Of a DNA stretch of 37,636 nucleotides, positions 25,058 through 34,347 are shown piece after piece. The notes under the pieces are model-generated. The model was given only the letters and a program-made list of their open reading frames with translations. It had not been told where the DNA came from and searched no databases. Origin of the DNA: an uncultured Christensenella sp. (GTDB lineage Bacteria; Bacillota; Clostridia; Christensenellales; UBA1242); contig CASFFG010000010.1 in NCBI GenBank assembly GCA_949293905.1, forward strand, positions 1 to 37,636. The letters are read 5' to 3'. The stretch's first letter is position 1. Every line of letters begins with the position of its first letter. The position numbers and the translations under genes are program-made.

Positions 25058-26250
25058 TTATGTCTCTCTTGTAGGGCTGAAAAGTGGAATGAGCGGATTC
25101 TCTTTTCCACTAAATAAATCCAAAAGAATTTTTGCACCGGCAAAAGCATTTATTACGCCGTTTGCACCACAACTAATCATATAGTAAATATCTTTAAATT
25201 TAGATTCGCCTATAAGCCCTAAATTGTCGTCCGTCCAACCAAAATATCCACAAAAAGAATATTCCACTCTAATTTTATCCGCAAAATCTGGAAACATTTT
25301 ACATAAATCTTTATATAGTTTCCTATATTTCTTTTTTGCAACTTTTTCGTCTATATTTTTTCCTTTACTCGCTGTATCTTCCCCTCCAAAAATTATGCGG
25401 GCATCGGGAAGCAGGCGCATGTAATGATACGGCTCTTTATCGTCCTGAACGAGCGCATTATTTTTTATTTTTAATTCAGGTAGTGGATTTGTAATGATAG
25501 TGTACGATATATCGCACATACAAAGATTTTGCTCAATTAAATCTAGGTTATATCCAGTAGCTATAACTATTTTCTTGCAATAAATTCGCTCTTTAAAATT
25601 TGTTATTGCCACAAAACCATTTTCGGTTCGCTCAATTTTGTCTATTTTTGTATTTTCAAATAAGTTGTGTTTGTTTGGCGCGTTTTCTATTAACTGTTTA
25701 GTAAACAAATACGGATTAAATTCCGCCCCGCCGTCTTCACAATATATTCCTTTTTTAATTTTAAAGGGGAAAGGGTTGTTGCTCTCATCTATTAATTTTG
25801 CTTTAAATCCGTGCTTTAATCTAAAAGCGTATTCATCTTCGACCGCTTTTGTCTTAAAAATATTTGTGGTATAAAGTAGGGACGGACGGGGCGAAAAGTG
25901 ACAATTATTCCCGTATTTTTTATAAATTTTTCTATTTCTTTAATACTGTTTTGACCCATTTTGTAGATATCGACGATATCATCTTCGCTCATGTATTTTA
26001 GCAAGTCCTTTGCATAATCGTCCAACTGATATTCAAGTAGAACTGTTGCGCAAGTTGTGCAACACATGCCGAAGCGCGATTTATCCACTAAGATAGTGTC
26101 ATATTTCTGTGCGATGTAAAAATTTGCAATGGCACCAACTATTCCGCCACCAATGATCAATATTTCCGTAGTCTTATCACAATTCAAATATGGGAAAGGC
26201 TCTATCCTTTCTGCCCTACAAAAATATGGTTCTCCCTTTACATATTCCAT
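25058..26250 (-). pseudogene. FAD-dependent (DAO-type) oxidoreductase, frameshifted
   Basis: Two open frames form one protein of about 397 residues. The N-terminal part has the dinucleotide fold ILIIGGGIVGAIANFYIAQKY followed by ILVDKSRFG. The C-terminal part has KKIVIATGYNLDLI, YHYMRLLPDARIIFGGED, GYFGWTDDNLGLIG and YYMISCGANGVINAFAGAKI, as in the glycine oxidase/YurR-like DAO family. The frame must shift by -1 near 25892-25898: adding one C to the CCCC would read RPRPSLLYTTNIFKTKAVED into the second frame. I place the start at 26250. A run of eight G (26256-26263 on the minus strand) lies five bases before that ATG in the ribosome-site position. The alternative start is 26265. It lies downstream of the sirtuin/macrodomain pair, as FAD enzymes sometimes do. 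Confidence 0.78.
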
Positions 26251-26370
26251 TTTTACCCCCCCCATTTGTATTTTGAATAATTAATGGATAAATATAAATA
26301 AAAATGGAAAATTCTCTATATAAAAATATCTCATTTCTTTAATGATAAATTATAGAAATGAAAATTTATA

Positions 26371-27264
26371 TTAAGTTAAATCGGTTAAAATTTTTGAAGT
26401 GTCTTCATTAAAAAGAAGTGTTTTATCCCTTATCTCTTCTGGGCAGAAAGCGTAGTCTTTGTTTATACGGATTAAATGAGTGTTTTTGTCCAAATAGGTC
26501 ATCTGTTCAAATGGATATTTTATGATTGCGGGCGTATTATACCCTACGCCGATTTCAATTAATACAAGTTTTTTATCCTTAGACTTTTCTAAAAATTCAC
26601 GGTACATTTTTGCATGCTCGTACCAACCTGTGTCCTGGACAAACCTATCGCCCGCACGCAAGTTCATTTCCATATTGCGCGAACATACTGGGCATTTTGG
26701 AATTAATGATTTATCAATTTTTGTTCTCCTATTCTTTCTATCATTTAACACAAGTTCGCCGTTTACTTCTTTTAAGAAGCCTTGTGATTTTAGCATATTA
26801 AAAACTAGGTCTTGGTTATCATATGTTTTATCATGACAAGGCACCGAGCATTGAAAAAGCCCGTAGTCGCCCTGTGTATAGAATAATCTATCTTTATCGA
26901 ATCCCGCCAACTGAAACTGGTGGTCAACATTAGTTGTTATTATAAAGTAGTTTTTGTTCCCTACTAATTCTTTTAGTGATAAATACAGGTCATTTGCCTT
27001 TGACTTATATCTATTGATATACACCATGCGCGACCAAAATGCCCATTTTTCTTCTTCCGTTTTAAAAGGATAAAATCCGCCAGAGTACATGTCGGTTAGT
27101 CCGTATTTATCCTTGAAATCAGCAAAATATTTATTGAAGGTCTCTCCGCCATACTCAAATCCGCCCGCTGTAGATAGACCAGCGCCCGCACCTATTAAAA
27201 TATAGTCCGCGTCTTTTAGTAACTCTCGCGCTGATTTAATTTTCTCTTCGTAATTCTTTATCAT
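26371..27264 (-). CDS. class M sirtuin (SirTM), protein ADP-ribosyltransferase
   Basis: 297 residues. A sirtuin Rossmann core with GAGAGLSTAGG (res 25-35), TTNVDHQFQLAG (110-121, the NAD-binding Asn/Asp), and TQGDYG (130-135), where canonical sirtuins have a catalytic His-Gly. Zinc cysteines are at 139, 143, 191 and 194 (CPVC). The departures from classical deacetylases and the partner macrodomain gene match class M sirtuins, which mono-ADP-ribosylate a lipoylated GcvH-like protein in staphylococci and streptococci. The start overlaps the macrodomain gene by 29 bases, so the two are coupled. No GcvH-L or LplA2 gene is visible in the window, so the target here is open. Confidence 0.9.
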   Translation of the reverse strand: MIKNYEEKIKSARELLKDADYILIGAGAGLSTAGGFEYGGETFNKYFADFKDKYGLTDMYSGGFYPFKTEEEKWAFWSRMVYINRYKSKANDLYLSLKELVGNKNYFIITTNVDHQFQLAGFDKDRLFYTQGDYGLFQCSVPCHDKTYDNQDLVFNMLKSQGFLKEVNGELVLNDRKNRRTKIDKSLIPKCPVCSRNMEMNLRAGDRFVQDTGWYEHAKMYREFLEKSKDKKLVLIEIGVGYNTPAIIKYPFEQMTYLDKNTHLIRINKDYAFCPEEIRDKTLLFNEDTSKILTDLT

Positions 27265-27844
27265 ACAACTCCTTATCTATATCTTTAAACACATTGAATA
27301 CTACTTTTATCTCGTTCCCGTTTTCATTTAGCCAATTTCGTACACTTTTTACTGCAATTTTACATGCAAGCGCATTTGGGAAAGAATATAATCCCGTTGA
27401 AATACAACAAAAAACTAAAGTCTTTAATTTTAACTCCTTCGCTTTATTCAGTGAATTTATATAACATTTAGCCAAGGCTTCTTCATCATTCTTTTTTACC
27501 ACTCCGCAGATTTGCGGTCCAGCGACATGGAGCACATACTTGCATGGCAAATTATATCCACGCGTAACTTTTACTGGTTGTAAATTGTAATCTCTTTTAT
27601 TTTTTAACTCCCTTAATTCATCTCGCATTTGAAAACCGCTAGCGGACATGATGACATTGTCTATGCAGTCATGACAAGGGACAAAGCAACCTAAGAACTC
27701 ATCGTTACCAGCATTGACTATTGCGTCCGCTTTAAGTGTAGTAATATCACCTTGAAATAGTGCTATGTTATTTTTAAATTTAAGTTCATTTACATCAATA
27801 ATACCTTTCTCTTCTTTTTCAATAGTTAAGAGTTCATCTTGCAA
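27236..27844 (-). CDS. zinc-type macrodomain ADP-ribosyl hydrolase (start uncertain)
   Basis: Macrodomain partner of the sirtuin, expected to remove its ADP-ribose marks. GDITTLKADAIVNAGNDEFL is followed by GCFVPCHDCIDNVI with the His/Cys zinc ligands of Zn-macrodomains, then YVLHVAGP and CISTGLYSFP. The 27844 start is a TTG without a ribosome site. The same frame stays open upstream to 28012 and there encodes EDYELDRRLFRGLCNQCL ... NLQDELLTIEKEEKGI, which matches the helical N-terminal region of full-length Zn-macro proteins. The real protein therefore begins upstream, but no ATG, GTG or TTG occurs in that stretch. Either a rare start is used, or the 5' end was lost next to the restriction island. 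Confidence 0.85.
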   Translation of the reverse strand: MQDELLTIEKEEKGIIDVNELKFKNNIALFQGDITTLKADAIVNAGNDEFLGCFVPCHDCIDNVIMSASGFQMRDELRELKNKRDYNLQPVKVTRGYNLPCKYVLHVAGPQICGVVKKNDEEALAKCYINSLNKAKELKLKTLVFCCISTGLYSFPNALACKIAVKSVRNWLNENGNEIKVVFNVFKDIDKELYDKELRREN

Positions 27845-28222: not shown

Positions 28223-30217
28223 ATGAAAAAACTACATTATAGACTTTATGGAGATAACATAATTGAATGTATTAGAATCGTTAAAATGATTAAAAACAAT
28301 TCTTTTGAAAATTTTCAAGAGAAATTATCACTTATAAATCAAATGTCTTCTATTATAACACTAAAAAATAATAATTATGAATTAATTTTTGAATTAGTAC
28401 CTGGATTTGAAAAAAGTAATAAAAAAAGATGGAGGGATAACATTTTAAATAACTATAAAACTATTGGTAGCGTTTTGGATGAAACGGCCGATGCTTTTAT
28501 AACAAAGATAGATAAAGATATCGAAACTATATTGTGTGTTATAGAGTTTTGTTCTGCTCTACAAGCTGGAAATCAAGCATGGCAACGATCTGGTAGAGCA
28601 TATTCTTGTGCAAGGACAAAAATACCTTATTTTTATATTATTGACTTACCAAAATATGAATTAAATCCAGCTACAAGGGAACGTTTAGCATTAAGATTTC
28701 CTAATTGTATTGTTCCTTATAGTTATATAACATATTCTGAAATACATAATACAACAGCATATGTCTTAATAAATAAATCTCAAGAATATATTGAAACTGA
28801 CCCAGCATTTGATGGATATGATATGTCTACAATATTTAATGATAAAGAGTTTGGAAATTATTTGTTGCATCTTATTTTAGGAAAAAATACGGAGAAATTT
28901 GTTGAAAGTATTAAAATAAAAAATAGTAATTTTGTAAATTTTTTAGCTCCACTTGAAAATGTACAATCTTACACAGGAGATGAAATACACGAATTAAATC
29001 CAGAAGAGCTGGCCAATTCAATTATTACTAATAATAAAAAATTTTCATTTAAAAAGAAAATTGCCAAAAAATCAATAAGCGGAAATTTAAATGATTTGCA
29101 TAATATAGTACAAAAATATAGTCTCGGTATTTTCAGTTCTGATTTACCTTTTGGTATTATTGAAAAAAACAAAATAATACATTTTGTTGAAGACTGCTCA
29201 AAATTATATCCTTTGGATAAAAAGATTAAAAAAGAATTGCTAAAAAAAGAGTGTTTAATTGTTACAATGATTAAAGGTTTCAAACCTGGAGGAGATGACA
29301 ATCGACCAGACAGAGGTATTTTACCTTTAATCAGAATGTTGTTTGGAGAACAAGCTCCAGTTCTTACTATTCTTTATGGTCCCTTATTAAAAAATAATTA
29401 CAAATTATTAACAAATAATCCTAAGAAACTTTCTAAGAGCAATGGATTATGGCAAACTATAATCGAATTATCGAATTATCTTTTATTTGATTGTCCTATT
29501 ATTAAAGAAGATGAAAATAAGTCGGGTTTTATTGTTTTTCATAGTACTTTAACCACATTAACAAATATTAAGTATTCTTTTAAAAAATTAGACTTGTCAC
29601 CACAACATTTCAGAGAAGATGATATTGATTCATTGTTCTATTTGCTTTTCTCGTACGAGTCAGATGCTTTTTATGGTATTTGTAATCCACCTGGCGGTGA
29701 TTGGAGTGGTTTGTCACTGATTTTTAATAATACAGAGTATCGATGGCTCTCTTTACCAAGAGTAAGCAATGATAAGAGACCTGACCATGTTATTGAATTT
29801 GATATTAATGGACAAAAACCCTTCCTACTTATTATGGAATCAAAGGAAAAGGCTTGCGACCTGGAAGAAAATATTGGATATAGGTTATCAAATTATGTTA
29901 AATGGTTGCTATCATCTATTCCAAATGTAGAATATGCTGAAGATTTATGGAAAAAAAGTAATAGAAAAATTTCATTTGACAATTTTCAACCAATTACTTG
30001 TGGTTCGTTTATTTCTACATCGTCTATAAATTATTCAAATTTATTAGAAACATCTAATTGTTATATAATTTATTCATGTATACCTCAGGATAATAAGTGG
30101 AAATTAGAAATATATTACAAAAATAACAATATAGTTTCTGAGTTCATTGAAAAAACAAAATCTATTTATAAAAATAGTATATTTATATTTGACGTAAAAT
30201 TTTTTGCCATTGATTAA
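28223..30217 (+). CDS. type II restriction endonuclease, PD-(D/E)XK family
   Basis: A 664-residue endonuclease. The C-terminal third has RPDHVIEF ... LLIMESKEKA, i.e. Pro520-Asp521 then Glu539-Ser-Lys541, a textbook PD-(D/E)XK site. A helix with NIGYRLSNYVKW follows. A second conserved-looking block at res 105-127 (CVIEFCSALQAGNQAWQRSG) has an E...Q...R-x-G layout and could be another catalytic or DNA-contact element. The size is far above the DpnII-type (about 290). AAGGAG seven bases before the ATG fixes the start. It ends convergently with, and overlapping by four bases (TTAA), the methyltransferase operon. Codon use is more AT-rich, with few GCG/CGC codons, unlike nifJ or tex, consistent with transfer. 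The recognition site cannot be deduced. Confidence 0.82.
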   Translation: MKKLHYRLYGDNIIECIRIVKMIKNNSFENFQEKLSLINQMSSIITLKNNNYELIFELVPGFEKSNKKRWRDNILNNYKTIGSVLDETADAFITKIDKDIETILCVIEFCSALQAGNQAWQRSGRAYSCARTKIPYFYIIDLPKYELNPATRERLALRFPNCIVPYSYITYSEIHNTTAYVLINKSQEYIETDPAFDGYDMSTIFNDKEFGNYLLHLILGKNTEKFVESIKIKNSNFVNFLAPLENVQSYTGDEIHELNPEELANSIITNNKKFSFKKKIAKKSISGNLNDLHNIVQKYSLGIFSSDLPFGIIEKNKIIHFVEDCSKLYPLDKKIKKELLKKECLIVTMIKGFKPGGDDNRPDRGILPLIRMLFGEQAPVLTILYGPLLKNNYKLLTNNPKKLSKSNGLWQTIIELSNYLLFDCPIIKEDENKSGFIVFHSTLTTLTNIKYSFKKLDLSPQHFREDDIDSLFYLLFSYESDAFYGICNPPGGDWSGLSLIFNNTEYRWLSLPRVSNDKRPDHVIEFDINGQKPFLLIMESKEKACDLEENIGYRLSNYVKWLLSSIPNVEYAEDLWKKSNRKISFDNFQPITCGSFISTSSINYSNLLETSNCYIIYSCIPQDNKWKLEIYYKNNNIVSEFIEKTKSIYKNSIFIFDVKFFAID

Positions 30218-31020
30218 TAGTTTAAAAATAAGGATTCTATTGTATTATTTAAATTTTTATCTATTACTTTATTAAACGTTGATTTTAAGCCTTTAATAAA
30301 AATGTGTCTTTTGTATAAATCTTTTGGTACTATACATTCATATTTTCTTTGGTCAGATGAACCATCAAATGATAAGGCAAATTTAATGCCTTTTTTGTTA
30401 AGTTCCCTTAAGAAATCCCATAACTTTTCATAGTCTATTTTTCCAAAATACATATTTTTAGTATTAAAATATGGTGGGTCTAAATATACAAAATCACCAC
30501 TTGAGACTTGAGATAATATTTGAGAATAATCTCCTGTAAAAAATTTATAATTTTGGATCTGCTTTGATGCTTCAAACAATACGTTAGACAAAGTGTCAGG
30601 ATTTACACCTTTTCTGCTATAGTGTAATGAATTATTAAACTTTCCATTTTTATTATAACGAATTAATCCATTAACACAAGTTCTTGAAAGAAATAGCAAA
30701 TCTTCTCCTGTTGGTTTTTTATTATATCTATCACGTACTACAAAAAATTCTCTATAATCATTTTGCAATAAGTACCATTCTTTTCGATAATGTGATACTA
30801 AAAAGTCTGGAAAATTTTTAAGTTTATTCCAAAAATCAATCAAAGAATCATTTATATCGACACATATAGCTTTTAATGGGGATAAACGCAATAATATAGA
30901 CCCTCCACCTAAAAATGGCTCGTAATATGTATTAATAATTGGTGGAAAATATTTAATAATTTCATCAGCCAAAAGTCTTTTGCTTCCACTCCACTTTATT
31001 ACTGGTTGTTTTTTATTCAT
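30214..31020 (-). CDS. D12-class (Dam-like) adenine-N6 DNA methyltransferase
   Basis: 268 residues, alpha-class MTase. KWSGSKRLLADEII is the SAM-side start, PFLGGGS (res 36-41) motif I, and VYLDPPYF (about 178-185) the catalytic DPPY. The order motif I then motif IV with a target-recognition insert between is that of Dam, DpnM and M.EcoRV. It protects one strand or form of the site cut by the convergent endonuclease. It overlaps the upstream methyltransferase gene by eight bases, so translation is coupled. Confidence 0.93.
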   Translation of the reverse strand: MNKKQPVIKWSGSKRLLADEIIKYFPPIINTYYEPFLGGGSILLRLSPLKAICVDINDSLIDFWNKLKNFPDFLVSHYRKEWYLLQNDYREFFVVRDRYNKKPTGEDLLFLSRTCVNGLIRYNKNGKFNNSLHYSRKGVNPDTLSNVLFEASKQIQNYKFFTGDYSQILSQVSSGDFVYLDPPYFNTKNMYFGKIDYEKLWDFLRELNKKGIKFALSFDGSSDQRKYECIVPKDLYKRHIFIKGLKSTFNKVIDKNLNNTIESLFLNY

Positions 31021-31816
31021 ATTTATTTAAATCCTTATCATTTAATCTTTTATTAGCCAAGTTAATATAATCTTGATTTATTTCAAAAGAGATATAATTT
31101 CTATTGTTACGTTTTGCACTTACACATTCAGTTCCTGAACCACAAAATGGTGACAATATTAAATCATTTTCATTAGAAGATAATTGTAATAATCTATCTA
31201 TAATTCTCACTGGTTTTTGAGTGGGGTGTTTACCATATTTTAATTCCCATTTTTGCTTGTTGTTCGGAATACTCCAAACAGTTCGCATTTGTTTGTCTTT
31301 TACTTTTAAGTTATCATATTCAAAATTACCATTTTTTGAAAATTCATAATTAAAGGTGTATTTTCTCTTTTTGGGTGAACTATGCACCCAAAGAATCGTT
31401 TCATGACTTGCTGTTAATCTGCGTCCAGCCAAATTAGGAAAAGAGTTAGGTTTATACCAAATAACTTCATTTATGATTTCTAATTCCAATAATTGACACA
31501 CAAAATTTATTATTCCTATGTTATGATAAGTGCCAAATATCCACATTGACCCTGTTTCTTTTAATATTCTTTTTGCTTCAGAAAGCCAAGCTTTAGTAAA
31601 TGAAAAATATTCATCTAAAGTAAAAGCGTCCCAGTCTTGCTTTACTTTATCCCATTTTCCGCCCATTCCTGCTATTAATGAATTTCCTTCACAGTGAATT
31701 GAATTTCCAAATGATAGGTTATATGGTGGATCTGCAATAATCAAATCAACAGAATTAGAATTTAAACTTTGCATACCTTTAATACAATCTATATTATATA
31801 TTTTATTTATTTCCAT
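31013..31816 (-). CDS. beta-class DNA methyltransferase (N6-adenine or N4-cytosine)
   Basis: 267 residues. Here the catalytic motif comes first, IIADPPYNLSFG (DPPY at res 29-32), and the SAM motif last, LSPFCGSGTECVSAKRNNRN (about res 225-244), which is the beta arrangement of M.HinfI, M.MboII and DpnA. KHPTQKPVRIIDRLL before it is the usual 'HPtqKP' motif. An alpha/beta pair next to one endonuclease occurs in DpnII-like systems and in systems with asymmetric sites where each strand needs its own enzyme. It overlaps the XRE gene by 14 bases and the D12 gene by eight. Confidence 0.93.
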   Translation of the reverse strand: MEINKIYNIDCIKGMQSLNSNSVDLIIADPPYNLSFGNSIHCEGNSLIAGMGGKWDKVKQDWDAFTLDEYFSFTKAWLSEAKRILKETGSMWIFGTYHNIGIINFVCQLLELEIINEVIWYKPNSFPNLAGRRLTASHETILWVHSSPKKRKYTFNYEFSKNGNFEYDNLKVKDKQMRTVWSIPNNKQKWELKYGKHPTQKPVRIIDRLLQLSSNENDLILSPFCGSGTECVSAKRNNRNYISFEINQDYINLANKRLNDKDLNKYE

Positions 31817-32027
31817 AGTTTTCTCTCTCTAAAATTATATCAACAATATCTCCAATATTGCACTTCAAAAATTGACAAATTTTTACTAATATTTCAGTAT
31901 TTACATTTTCTCCTTTTGCCAGTTTGGTAATTGTTGATTTGCTTACTCCAGTCATTTCATGTAATTGAGTTTTATTTATTTTTTTATCTATCAATAGTTT
32001 CCATAATTTATTATAACTTAATCCCAT
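31803..32027 (-). CDS. XRE-family regulator of the restriction-modification operon
   Basis: A 74-residue Cro/CI-type helix-turn-helix protein: KLLIDKKINKTQLHEMTGVS followed by STITKLAKGENVNTEILVKICQFLKCNIGDIVDII covers all five helices. It is the first gene of the methyltransferase operon and overlaps the next by 14 bases. Its role may be like that of controller (C) proteins, timing methylase before nuclease, but the endonuclease is on the other strand and has its own promoter. AAGGAG precedes the ATG. Confidence 0.9.
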   Translation of the reverse strand: MGLSYNKLWKLLIDKKINKTQLHEMTGVSKSTITKLAKGENVNTEILVKICQFLKCNIGDIVDIILERENYGNK

Positions 32028-32334: not shown

Positions 32335-33573
32335 TTATTCTACAATGACTTTTAAGAATACCTTTTTACCCTTTTTCACAACTATATTCTTACCTTTTAT
32401 TAACTGGATTTTTATATTTTGATTGTCTAGTTTTTCGCCGTCAATAGTTATTCCACCTTGCTCAATTAGCCTTCTAATTTCGCTCTTTGAACTAAAGATA
32501 GATAGCATAGACAAAAATTCTACTACATTTAACTCTCCATTAAAATTTAGCGTTTCACTTGGCATATTCTCAGCAATTTTGTCACCTTTGCTAAACAACT
32601 TTTCAGCGGTTTCTTTCGCCTTGGTTGCTTCCAACTCCCCATGTACCAATTTTGTAACTTCAAAAGCCATTAATTTTTTAGCACGCACAATATCTTTTTT
32701 ACACATTTCTTTAATGGTATCTATTTTTAAATCCGTAAAAAATCTTAAAAGCCTTTCCACATCGGCGTCTAGGCAATTAACAAAATGTTGGAAAAATTCA
32801 AACGCAGATGTCTTTTCCCTAGACACCCATAGTGTCCCCTTTTCTGTTTTCCCCATTTTTACACCGTCCGCATTAGTTAAAAGCGGGCAGGTTAAACCCA
32901 CCATTAAAGGTCTAGGAGTTCCGTCCTTAAAATTCATCTTTCTGCTAAGTTCAGTGCCTGCTACAATATTACCCCATTGGTCAGAGCCTCCTATTTGTAA
33001 AATACAATTAAATTTATCGTTTAGATGCACAAAATCAAATGCCTGCATCAGCATGTAACCCATTTCCATGAAAGTCAATCCACCCTGCTCTAAACGATTT
33101 TTGTATAGGTCCTTTTTTAACATCTCATTAACATTAAAGTTAACGCCAACTTCACGCAAAAAATCAATGTATGTGATAGGTTTTAACCAATCTGCGTTAT
33201 CTACGATAATCGCCGGATTATCACCGTTTAGTTTAATGAATCGTTTAAGCAAATTTTTAATTTCTCTTGCGTTTTTCTCGACTTCTTCTTTCGTTAACAT
33301 TTTTCGCATATCTTTCTTTCCACTCGGGTCACCTATTAGTGCAGTTGCTCCGCCAATTAATACTATGCACTTATGCCCGCAATCTTGTAAAATTCTCGCC
33401 ATACGCAACCCAAAAAAATGCCCTATATGCAGGTCGTCGGCGGTCGGGTCAATACCAATGTAAAATGTTACAGGTTTTTCACTAAGTATTCTTTTTGTTT
33501 CTTCTAAATTGGTAGATTGAAATACAAATCCGCGTTCTTCAAGTATTTCAAATGCGTTATTTTTAAATTCCAT
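32335..33573 (-). CDS. tyrS: tyrosyl-tRNA synthetase
   Basis: 412 residues; charges tRNA-Tyr with tyrosine in the cytoplasm. Class I signature HIGH at res 49-52 (ADDLHIGHFFGLR), tyrosine-binding region with GGSDQWGNIVAGTEL, the KMSKS loop as KMGKT (about res 234), and a C-terminal S4 RNA-binding domain (about 345-405, SSKSEIRRLIEQGGITIDGE). KMGKT in place of KMSKS is characteristic of the TyrRS subgroup called TyrZ-like. AAGGAG precedes the ATG. It lies about 337 bases downstream of its predicted transcription start, with a Tyr-rich leader peptide and tandem terminators between, and no T-box. Confidence 0.97.
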   Translation of the reverse strand: MEFKNNAFEILEERGFVFQSTNLEETKRILSEKPVTFYIGIDPTADDLHIGHFFGLRMARILQDCGHKCIVLIGGATALIGDPSGKKDMRKMLTKEEVEKNAREIKNLLKRFIKLNGDNPAIIVDNADWLKPITYIDFLREVGVNFNVNEMLKKDLYKNRLEQGGLTFMEMGYMLMQAFDFVHLNDKFNCILQIGGSDQWGNIVAGTELSRKMNFKDGTPRPLMVGLTCPLLTNADGVKMGKTEKGTLWVSREKTSAFEFFQHFVNCLDADVERLLRFFTDLKIDTIKEMCKKDIVRAKKLMAFEVTKLVHGELEATKAKETAEKLFSKGDKIAENMPSETLNFNGELNVVEFLSMLSIFSSKSEIRRLIEQGGITIDGEKLDNQNIKIQLIKGKNIVVKKGKKVFLKVIVE

Positions 33574-33637
33574 AATTTACTCCTTTTCCCTTATAAGTTT
33601 TCTTTAATAAATTTTAAAATTTTTCTTTATAAATATT

Positions 33638-33712
33638 TTATAAAATTTTTCTTTGAAATAAAATTGTTTTCACGCCCAAACGGGCGTAAATTTTAATATT
33701 AAATATTTTCAT
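33638..33712 (-). CDS. second small leader ORF before tyrS
   Basis: A 24-codon ORF with a strong AAGGAG five bases before its ATG. It starts MKIFNIKIYARLGVK and is mostly basic and hydrophobic, with one Tyr. Its start resembles the first leader peptide (MKILF). Inside it is a GC-rich hairpin (ACGCCC...GGGCGT at 33672-33687). It may keep ribosomes on the leader after read-through, or be a decayed second copy of a leader. Whether it is translated is unknown. Confidence 0.5.
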   Translation of the reverse strand: MKIFNIKIYARLGVKTILFQRKIL

Positions 33713-33723
33713 AATCGCTCCTT

Positions 33724-33761
33724 AATAAAAAATCTGCCATAAGTTTATATACTCGTGGCAG
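33724..33761 (-). terminator. tyrS leader terminator 2
   Basis: In the minus-strand RNA, CUGCCA (33761-33756) pairs with UGGCAG (33739-33734). After one C/A mismatch four more pairs follow, closing a six-base loop; six U follow (33732-33727). It has the same 28-base size and 6-base loop as terminator 1 and is probably its duplicate. Its 5' arm CUGCCAC (33761-33755) can instead pair perfectly with the 3' arm of terminator 1. Confidence 0.8.
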
Positions 33762-33802
33762 AATAAAATAAAAACTGCCACACAGTATTCGCTATATGAC
33801 AG
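33762..33802 (-). terminator. tyrS leader terminator 1 (attenuator)
   Basis: An 11-bp RNA stem (33802-33792 with 33785-33775, three G-U pairs) with loop CGAAUA, followed by a U-rich tract UUUUUAUUUUAUU. Its 5' arm contains CAUAUAGCGA (33798-33789), which is perfectly complementary to the segment just after the leader peptide stop. This is segment 3-4 of the attenuator. Confidence 0.82.
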
Positions 33803-33861
33803 TTAATTTTGAAAATTTATGCGACACAAAACTACTACATATAGCGATTAAATGTAGTAGT
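33789..33861 (-). promoter_or_regulatory. antiterminator and pause-hairpin region of the tyrS attenuator
   Basis: Two mutually exclusive perfect 10-bp helices. Segment 1 ACUACUACAU (33861-33852), which is made of the Tyr codons, pairs with AUGUAGUAGU (33840-33831). Segment 2 UCGCUAUAUG (33847-33838) pairs with CAUAUAGCGA (33798-33789), the 5' arm of terminator 1. A ribosome stalled on Tyr codons masks segment 1 and frees segment 2 to block the terminator. Confidence 0.85.
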
Positions 33862-33895
33862 AATAATATGAACAGTTCGCAAATAAAATTTTCAT
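33848..33895 (-). CDS. tyrosine-rich leader peptide of tyrS
   Basis: A 15-residue ORF, MKILFANCSYYYYYI, with AGGAG five bases before the ATG and a consensus promoter 22 bases upstream. Five consecutive Tyr codons (TAT TAT TAC TAC TAC) precede Ile and TAA. It is followed by overlapping alternative hairpins, two intrinsic terminators and then tyrS, the gene that consumes tyrosine. This is the organisation of the trp, his and phe leaders of enteric bacteria. The peptide itself presumably has no function after translation. It is too short to arise in the standard gene lists, but the combination of signals makes it convincing. Confidence 0.88.
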   Translation of the reverse strand: MKILFANCSYYYYYI

Positions 33896-33916
33896 ATTTT
33901 CTCCTAATATACTTTT

Positions 33917-33944
33917 ATTATATCCTTAAACTTAAAAAAGTCAA
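33917..33944 (-). promoter_or_regulatory. tyrS leader promoter
   Basis: TTGACT (33939-33944), 16-base spacer, perfect TATAAT (33917-33922). Predicted start near 33910, 15 bases before the leader peptide ATG. It lies just past the stop of the preceding gene. Confidence 0.88.
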
Positions 33945-33951
33945 TATTTTT

Positions 33952-34347
33952 CTATTTATTTTCCCAAATCTTTATATATCCAAGTTCAAGATATAAGCAG
34001 ATTTCATCATAGGACTTTACAGCCTCACTCGGTTTTTTATAAATATAAATTTCAATATTTTTGTTATAAAGAATATTTTGAGCAATAGCAAAACTAAGTT
34101 CTGCAAAACCCGCTGACCCAATATATCCGTCTATATTATCCTTATCATAATTATACAACATATATACATCGCAATTCGCTATATTTTCATAAAATGCCTT
34201 ATGTGTCCCTTTATAAATCTTCAAAAAATTTTCTTTTTGAATAGCCTTAGGATAATCTAAAATTTCATATTGATTACTCAATTCTTTACATAGATTTTTT
34301 ATTTTTTCTTGATTACTTGCGCTACCAGAAATTACGATTTTCTTCAT
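33952..34347 (-). CDS. nucleoside 2-deoxyribosyltransferase-like protein
   Basis: 131 residues from the ATG at 34347, which has GGAG upstream; a longer frame from 34392 would overlap pflA. KKIVISGSASNQEKIKNLCK is a Rossmann-like first strand and helix. NCDVYMLYNYDKDNIDGYIG followed by SAGFAELSFAIA fits the 'aD.vvv....d..GtafElg.A' strand-helix of the nucleoside deoxyribosyltransferase/DUF4406 superfamily, with Glu in the catalytic position. It follows pflA by 14 bases, so it is co-transcribed, but a functional link is not obvious. Its stop TAG lies next to the tyrS leader promoter. A related TIR-like or hydrolase role is possible. Confidence 0.6.
   Translation of the reverse strand: MKKIVISGSASNQEKIKNLCKELSNQYEILDYPKAIQKENFLKIYKGTHKAFYENIANCDVYMLYNYDKDNIDGYIGSAGFAELSFAIAQNILYNKNIEIYIYKKPSEAVKSYDEICLYLELGYIKIWENK

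Follow-up and report, generated by a model that had tools for sequence, protein, structure and literature searches.

The enteric pheST genes are a known case of a synthetase under ribosome-mediated attenuation. In Bacillus subtilis, the spare synthetases encoded by tyrZ and thrZ are T-box controlled and induced by uncharged tRNA. The genes tyrS2 and thrS2 considered here are likewise second TyrRS and ThrRS copies, but the T-box of tyrZ and thrZ reads tRNA directly, whereas the tyrS2 leader would have a translating ribosome as its reader.

In bacilli, His leader peptides occur at duplicated hisS genes (hisZ and hisS*; PMC2965389). As at tyrS2, a run of cognate codons precedes a duplicated synthetase gene of Bacillota in place of a T-box, but the amino acid and lineage differ, and the accessible part of the report describes neither a chained second terminator nor a second sensor ORF. 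The rimP leader of some Gammaproteobacteria contains two tandem terminators, the upstream one with a potential antiterminator (PMC2965389). This serial arrangement resembles that of tyrS2; in contrast, no leader ORF or arm-to-arm release is described for rimP in the same excerpt. Candidate attenuators of leuS and trpS in Streptomyces also place a synthetase gene under ribosome-mediated attenuation but, in the portion of the paper at hand, with one terminator and in another phylum (PMC1262725). The his operon attenuators of Firmicutes, comprising leader peptides with three to five cognate codons, a terminator and an antiterminator (PMC9413887), share these elements and the affiliation with Bacillota, but belong to biosynthesis genes, and the available text mentions no relay. 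The cysS leader uORFC-8-2 (Rhodobacterales) and the aroF leader uORFC-13-1 are upstream ORFs with cognate codons (PMC8632094); like the tyrS2 leader, they precede a synthetase or aromatic gene, but they belong to other lineages, and the sections consulted describe no relay from a first terminator (T1) to a second (T2). Finally, in the tandem attenuators mgtM and mgtP of Salmonella mgtCBR, two ORFs sense different signals independently (PMC3641672). Two small ORFs per leader, one sensing charged tRNA, are a likeness to tyrS2. As far as that article was available, however, the mgtCBR stem-loops are unlike intrinsic terminators, whereas the tyrS2 leader has two intrinsic terminators sharing a helix; the mgtCBR ORFs differ in signal, whereas both tyrS2 ORFs carry the same cognate codon.

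In the literature covered, mostly outside subscription journals and partly as excerpts, we found no Tyr-codon tyrS leader, no chained terminators and no second cognate ORF. Placing a spare synthetase under the control of a ribosome has precedents in kind; the chaining of terminators and a second cognate ORF were not found described in these sources.

The tyrS2 gene and its leader

The analyzed window is a 37,636-nucleotide stretch (contig CASFFG010000010.1) from an uncultured Christensenella sp., a gut bacterium. Its minus strand encodes tyrS2, a tyrosine--tRNA ligase of 412 aa (32335..33573) that scores 388.6 bits against TIGR00234, above the cut-off. The product contains tRNA-synt_1b and S4 domains and, seen by eye, HIGH and KMGKT stretches that we take to be the motifs of those names. 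The gene is a second tyrS copy; the other copy, on contig C2 of the same genome, is 49% identical and has no such leader in its 500 upstream bases. The leader of tyrS2 comprises 320 bases of the minus strand, 5' of the gene and 3' of ORFs that read as pflB- and pflA-like. Beside tyrS2, positions 28223-32027 contain two DNA methyltransferase genes (PF02086 and PF01555), a small HTH gene and a 664-aa ORF with no Pfam match, perhaps a restriction-modification locus adjoining tyrS2. Elsewhere in the window, an FAD-dependent oxidoreductase gene (DAO) is broken into two pieces (25058-26265), and an ORF with a Macro domain (PF01661) overlaps an ORF that reads as sirtuin-like (26371-27844).

All leader features lie on the minus strand. 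A promoter-like sequence, TTGACT-16-TATAAT, is located at 33944-33917. A preliminary description of this DNA had called it a consensus promoter; the site has 11 of 12 matches and similar boxes were seen by eye upstream of the leader ORF in relatives, but looser sites of this kind are equally common in shuffles (2 in the leader region versus a mean of 3.3). The same description had reported a five-Tyr, 15-codon ORF with AGGAG, two 10-bp helices and two terminators, all of which are present. The ORF (ORF1, 33895-33848) encodes the leader peptide MKILFANCSYYYYYI followed by a stop codon, is preceded by AGGAG and has its five Tyr codons at 33868-33854. Helix 1:2 (33831..33861) joins the Tyr codons at 33861-33852 with 33840-33831 over 10 bp. 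The antiterminator helix 2:3 (33789..33847), also of 10 bp, pairs 33847-33838 with 33798-33789. T1 (helix 3:4, 33762..33804) has a 13-bp stem including wobbles (33804-33773) followed by a U-tract, and T2 (helix 5:6, 33727..33762) a stem of 7+4 bp with one mismatch (33762-33733) followed by U6. A terminator scan of the window listed T1 but lacked T2, probably because of the T2 mismatch. Between them, UGUGGCAG (33782-33775) in arm 4 of T1 can pair with CUGCCACG (33761-33754) in arm 5 of T2, giving a putative relay helix 4:5 (33754..33782); the complementarity noted earlier, GUGGCAG with CUGCCAC, thus extends to 8 bp with one G-U. The leader region folds at -57.1 kcal/mol compared to -36.4 (sd 3.8) for 200 dinucleotide shuffles (z -5.4), none of which was equal; together with the orthologues described below, this rules out a chance origin of the fold.

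These parts suggest the following course of events. A ribosome stalled on the Tyr codons of ORF1 would cover segment 1, leaving segment 2 to pair with segment 3 and block T1. The freed segment 4 could then pair with segment 5 once this has been made, T2 would be blocked in turn, and polymerase would reach tyrS2. With ample Tyr, the ribosome would stand at the stop codon, or 1:2 would have formed, so that 3:4 forms T1 and uses up arm 4; arm 5 would remain free, and T2 would form as a fail-safe. The succession of folding steps, the operation of the relay in cells and the induction by Tyr shortage are our inferences. We consider it quite likely that the leader is a ribosome-mediated attenuator with serially chained terminators that induces a spare TyrRS gene at low charged tRNA-Tyr.

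Distribution of the leader and its second ORF

Among 34 genomes of the genus, tyrS2 occurs in eight, its own included. A scan with one genome per species yielded 26 tyrS loci, 20 of them at ≥69% identity, seven of which are contigs already among the genus matches. Together with the window these 20 make 21 tyrS2 loci; L044 is without upstream DNA, leaving 20 usable. The 20 tyrS2 records come from metagenomes, with assembly titles that name uncultured Clostridia, Clostridiales, Clostridium or Christensenella. A leader ORF was found in 19 of the 20 loci having upstream DNA, with the Tyr run YYYYY in 16 and YYYCY, YYGYY and YYWWTY in L041, L045 and L056, respectively. The remaining locus, L040, has no leader within 460 bases. 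L046 features T1 alone and was left out of T2 counts. Other rows dropped were L044 and the duplicate L004 (no upstream DNA), L080, L124 and L128 (cut at contig ends), L193 (a proS homologue with no leader in 420 bases) and same-contig duplicates under two ids. In L078 (G025:C11, minus strand), a five-Tyr leader with T1 and T2 precedes a tyrS2 relic of which only both gene ends remain; some 0.9 kb further upstream, the same strand encodes a thrS2 that has a leader too.

The layout extends to other genes. A model from ORF1 to T1 (R2) matched in 34 of 307 family genomes and 6 of 396 order genomes, and a longer model (R1) in 29 of 309. Named by reading, the matches include another tyrS clade (L085-L089, L091) and, in four genomes, trpS-like genes (L090, L097, L123, L126) whose ORF1 contains one or two Trp codons; these have one terminator, with T1 and trpS 205-624 bases apart. 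A radical-SAM-like gene (L125), for which every NCBIfam match was below cut-off, a thrS (L127) and a DAHP synthase gene (L098) matched more weakly (E 2e-5 to 1e-4). At L125 (G180:C122), a leader with Tyr, His and Phe codons, T1, T2 and a His ORF2 precedes the radical-SAM-like gene and an ORF that reads as ileS-like. At L098 (G627:C116), from another family, a leader ORF with Phe/Tyr codons (MKKNIIANAFYYFYFYGFNKS) and a terminator precede the DAHP synthase gene and an ORF that reads as prephenate-dehydrogenase-like, making it a candidate Phe/Tyr attenuator of aromatic synthesis.

Within the window genome, the complete layout of ORF1, T1, T2 and a second small ORF (ORF2) recurs at thrS (contig C3 near 8404, ORF1 LNITTTT) and proS (contig C5 near 70917, ORF1 LNIPTT). 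This thrS, here thrS2, encodes a short second ThrRS whose best NCBIfam match, PRK03991, is below cut-off on a 448-residue part; close copies were found in 5 of the 34 genomes of the genus, all of which also contain another, less similar match. For proS, the best NCBIfam match, PRK09194, is likewise below cut-off, and the 307 family genomes contain six homologues at 66-89%, one of them (G115) frame-broken. The gene itself and five of the six homologues have a leader with T1 and T2, the sixth being L193. ORF1 of these proS leaders mixes one or two Pro codons with Thr codons, a point against the proposed attenuator.

ORF2, which the preliminary description overlooked together with the second-copy status of tyrS2, is situated between T2 and the gene, with its Shine-Dalgarno sequence soon after the T2 U-tract. 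In the window it spans 33638..33712 on the minus strand, encodes MKIFNIKIYARLGVKTILFQRKIL followed by a stop codon, has AAGGAG just upstream and contains a Tyr codon at 33688-33686. Within this codon begins a hairpin, ACGCCC-GUUU-GGGCGU (33672..33687). ORF2 with its Shine-Dalgarno sequence recurs in relatives. Of the 20 tyrS2-type leaders with T2, 17 have it in the form x-Y-A-(2 to 6 residues)-G, its Tyr codon being the site of a GC hairpin; the exceptions are L056 (distant start), L082 (hairpin with no Tyr codon found in frame) and L078 (ORF2 lost). The thrS2 form is IITRKG with ACCC-GAAA-GGGU (5/5 leaders), and the proS form PP at CCNCCC...GGGUGG (4/6 by script; SP by eye in L192, none in L194). 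L125 contains His in both ORF2 and ORF1, and L056 has a second ORF2 copy with Trp, an amino acid also present in its ORF1. In all four trpS leaders, the ORF that follows T1 closes with YW and at most three further residues, without the GCCC/GGGC hairpin; that of L123 has no good start site. Across these leaders, the cognate codon of ORF2 tends to follow the gene (Tyr, Thr and Pro, with Trp in the trpS leaders).

We regard it as somewhat probable that ORF2 is a second sensor. A ribosome stalled there would also act on read-through mRNA, either by protecting it from decay, our first guess, or by gating entry to tyrS2. A tentative alternative, to which we assign about a one-in-three weight, is that ORF2 senses nothing and that the GCCC/GGGC hairpin serves at the DNA or RNA level, for instance as an antisense terminator or a 5' stabilizer, with an incidental frame. 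The consensus scan does call the hairpin a terminator of the opposite strand, the Tyr codon of L082 is off frame, and L040 retains the hairpin with no Shine-Dalgarno ORF seen. C-rich hairpin arms moreover favor Pro and Thr codons, which makes the proS and thrS2 families weaker evidence than those of Tyr and Trp. The incidental frame is at odds with the cognate codon found at the hairpin in 17/20 tyrS2-type, 5/5 thrS2 and 4/6 proS leaders (L192 being a fifth by eye), and with the Trp codons near the end of the post-T1 ORF in 4/4 trpS leaders, which have no such hairpin. On the coding strand, the hairpin has no U-tract and is not listed by the terminator scan. No partner for its arms was seen by eye in the tyrS2 Shine-Dalgarno sequence or T2. 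A dispersed repeat was considered and rejected: the exact pattern occurs at a single genomic site, where both strands show it. A wider ORF2-like pattern was not specific (35 matches in the 34 genomes versus 55 for a reversed control), and only 12 rows with leader anatomy in their surroundings were kept from it. Between ORF2 and tyrS2, a possible internal promoter (TTGAAW, ~17, TATAAT) was seen by eye in several relatives; in this interval of the window, the promoter scan lists none on that strand.

Taken as a sensor, ORF2 would complete a modular control of synthetases, including the spare TyrRS and ThrRS, in this family of uncultured Clostridia, a two-checkpoint starvation switch comprising the sensor ORF1, a two-terminator domino and a cognate ORF2 at a hairpin, re-coded for Tyr, Thr and Pro (and Trp, with one terminator). 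For this composite view, we see the chances as slightly better than even.

The helix between the two terminators

The preliminary description had proposed that release of T1 is passed on to T2. From sequence comparison, such a relay appears likely. T2 was recognized by eye, and all 34 leaders judged to bear it (20 tyrS2-type, 2 of the other tyrS clade, 5 thrS2, 6 proS and 1 radical-SAM-like) have complementary stretches of 6 bp or more in arm 4 of T1 and arm 5 of T2. For 13 representatives, the match of arm 4 with arm 5 is -13.1 kcal/mol within leaders versus -4.2 between leaders (0/20000 permutations). Shuffled versions of arm 5 matched equally well 0 to 29 times per 2000 per leader, the value of 29 coming from L056. 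The arms in the thrS-like and proS-like chains are unrelated in sequence to those of tyrS2.

A simpler reading is a single-step Tyr attenuator, in which T1 is the switch, T2 a leaky duplicated back-up and 4:5 a by-product of copying. T1 and T2 arms are indeed alike in most tyrS2, thrS2 and proS leaders and, since T2 resembles T1, part of the 4:5 complementarity comes from duplication. T1-only leaders exist as well (L046, L085, L088, L089, L091 and four trpS, by eye). In addition, arm 5 forms Watson-Crick pairs over 4:5 nearly as often with arm 6 as with arm 4: arm 4 versus arm 6 counts were 142 versus 128 of 161 for tyrS2, 16 versus 10 of 18 for other tyrS, 44 versus 46 of 55 for thrS2 and 53 versus 50 of 63 for proS, with a choice of positions that favors arm 4. 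Nonetheless, we judge this single-step reading unlikely. A strong, unopened T2 would halt transcription even in starvation; because T2 lies beyond T1, starvation could hardly induce tyrS2 unless T2 opened. At column 169 of arm 5, which is gapped in three of 19 rows, the base has a partner in arm 4 in 14 of 16 leaders but in arm 6 in 7 of 16 (nine with arm 4 only, two with arm 6 only). L056 retains CUGCCA in arm 5 even though its T2 stem has changed to a new one, and in L189 and L190, arm 5 pairs fully with arm 4 but has one mismatch with arm 6.

Two leaders of the other tyrS clade also speak against a single step and are the clearest cases of a 4:5 helix that likeness of T1 and T2 does not explain. 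In L086, AUAAAG rather than a U-tract comes after hairpin 3:4, which leaves the following hairpin, with U7, as the sole good terminator. In L087, AUUUAAAG with three U follows 3:4, and the next hairpin, with U6, is again the only good terminator. Because neither has a proper U-tract after 3:4, helix 4:5, of 10 bp in L086 and 9 bp in L087, is the only visible link from ribosome to terminator. The predicted probability of T2 in L086 and L087 was 0.00 and 0.01 with 2:3 imposed, versus 1.00 with 3:4 imposed. In L087, however, helix 2:3 is weak (7 bp), and the three U kept after 3:4 lower the odds of a relay a little.

Covariation was assessed against shuffles, whose counts are not probabilities as all compared sequences are related. 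Helices 2:3 and 4:5 together have 97.9% of cells paired in 19 leaders, and 4 of 16 pairs are double-changed compared to 1.3 in shuffles (1/500); further pair types are no better than in shuffles (10 versus 9.2, 146/500), which likewise makes the relay slightly less likely. For 4:5 alone in these 19 leaders, 98.4% of cells are paired (24/500 shuffles), and two double changes (16/500) come from L043 and L047. The covariation of 4:5 by itself is modest.

Folding predictions, with the stalled ribosome placed on the second Tyr codon, indicate when 4:5 might act. For RNA ending after arm 5 in the stalled state, the probability of 4:5 is at least 0.95 in 22/22 tyrS-type leaders, and at the same stage, with arm 3 masked, it is 1.00 in 12/12 thrS2, proS and radical-SAM leaders. 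At full T2 length, the equilibrium shifts: with 2:3 imposed, T2 reaches at least 0.67 in 14 of 22 tyrS-type leaders, a preference that favors the single-step reading, and with arm 3 masked at least 0.85 in 7 of 12 non-tyrS leaders. In the window, full-length RNA at equilibrium gives T2 0.85 versus 0.15 for 4:5. Masking of arm 4 raises T2 to 1.00 in all 22 tyrS-type leaders, which identifies 4:5 as the competitor of T2. Given the full-length preference for T2, a relay in the window must be kinetic, with 4:5 forming first and holding while polymerase crosses the U-tract. The proposed chained release thus gains from the universal occurrence of 4:5 among the examined T2-bearing leaders, from L086 and L087 and from the thrS-like and proS-like chains, and is qualified by the window equilibrium and the modest covariation of 4:5.

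The probable signal at ORF1

For the first step, attenuation of tyrS2 by a ribosome at the Tyr codons, orthologues and covariation agree strongly with the earlier proposal, and we consider this mechanism almost certain. Sequence comparison establishes the ORF, the identity of its codons and the covariation of 1:2, 2:3 and the two terminators. In the A2 alignment of 19 leaders, 89.3% of cells in 1:2, T1 and T2 are paired, and 9 of 34 pairs are changed on both sides versus 3.7 in shuffled data. With other genera added (A3, 23 leaders), double changes in 1:2 and T1 affect 13 of 22 pairs versus 2.9 (0/500 shuffles); for 1:2 on these 23 leaders, 6 of 10 pairs have changes on both sides. Helix 2:3, with 97.6% of cells paired, contains the double changes U-A/C-G and A-U/G-C. 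Even in L056, with its Tyr-Tyr-Trp-Trp-Thr-Tyr run, a 1:2 hairpin of 5+7 bp still folds, weakly above shuffles (14/200 equal). Helices 1:2, 2:3 and 3:4 are mutually exclusive and conserved, and the predicted switch is complete for the window, with T1 at 0.00 in the stalled state and 1.00 with the ribosome at the stop codon or absent. T1 remained at ≥0.90 despite the stall in 7 of 22 leaders, including L087, so kinetics matter at this step too.

That the nascent ORF1 peptide rather than its codons stalls the ribosome is very improbable. N-terminal residues of the LFAN type are kept in many leaders, but this stretch pairs as RNA: the 5' codons of ORF1 match sequence after segment 2 with a mean of -7.4 within versus -4.9 between leaders (0/20000 permutations, 23 leaders). 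Furthermore, the peptides vary between families, whereas the cognate codon follows the gene.

A T-box riboswitch (RF00230) reading tRNA-Tyr directly, despite the T-box motif GGTGGTACCGCG seen by eye before three (L057-L059) of the six more distant tyrS genes (53-57% identity, assemblies titled Bacilli, Firmicutes or Bacillota) and five matches elsewhere in the window genome, has practically no chance of controlling tyrS2, as the leader has a conserved ORF with a codon run instead and the covariance scan, at the sensitivity used, refuted it. Rfam gave no matches in the window at the gathering threshold and, at E up to 10, five sub-threshold matches in 33400-34100, none of them a T-box. The five T-box matches in the genome (E up to 0.001, one above the gathering score) are followed, by eye, by aspS, a hydrolase gene, pheS, serS and valS. 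In L033 (G000:C1), an ORF resembling a small hydrolase has a T-box match upstream of it and lies ~1.5 kb ahead of the longer thrS match, and the two ThrRS copies may therefore be under different tRNA sensors.

If the proposed mechanism is true, spare synthetases would be controlled by leader peptides in a genome where T-boxes precede other genes. One stalled ribosome would open two serial terminators through a chain of hairpins, providing a tight, low-leak switch made of RNA only. Because this layout recurs at tyrS2, thrS2 and proS with unrelated letters, the relay as well as the putative second sensor ORF can be tested directly.
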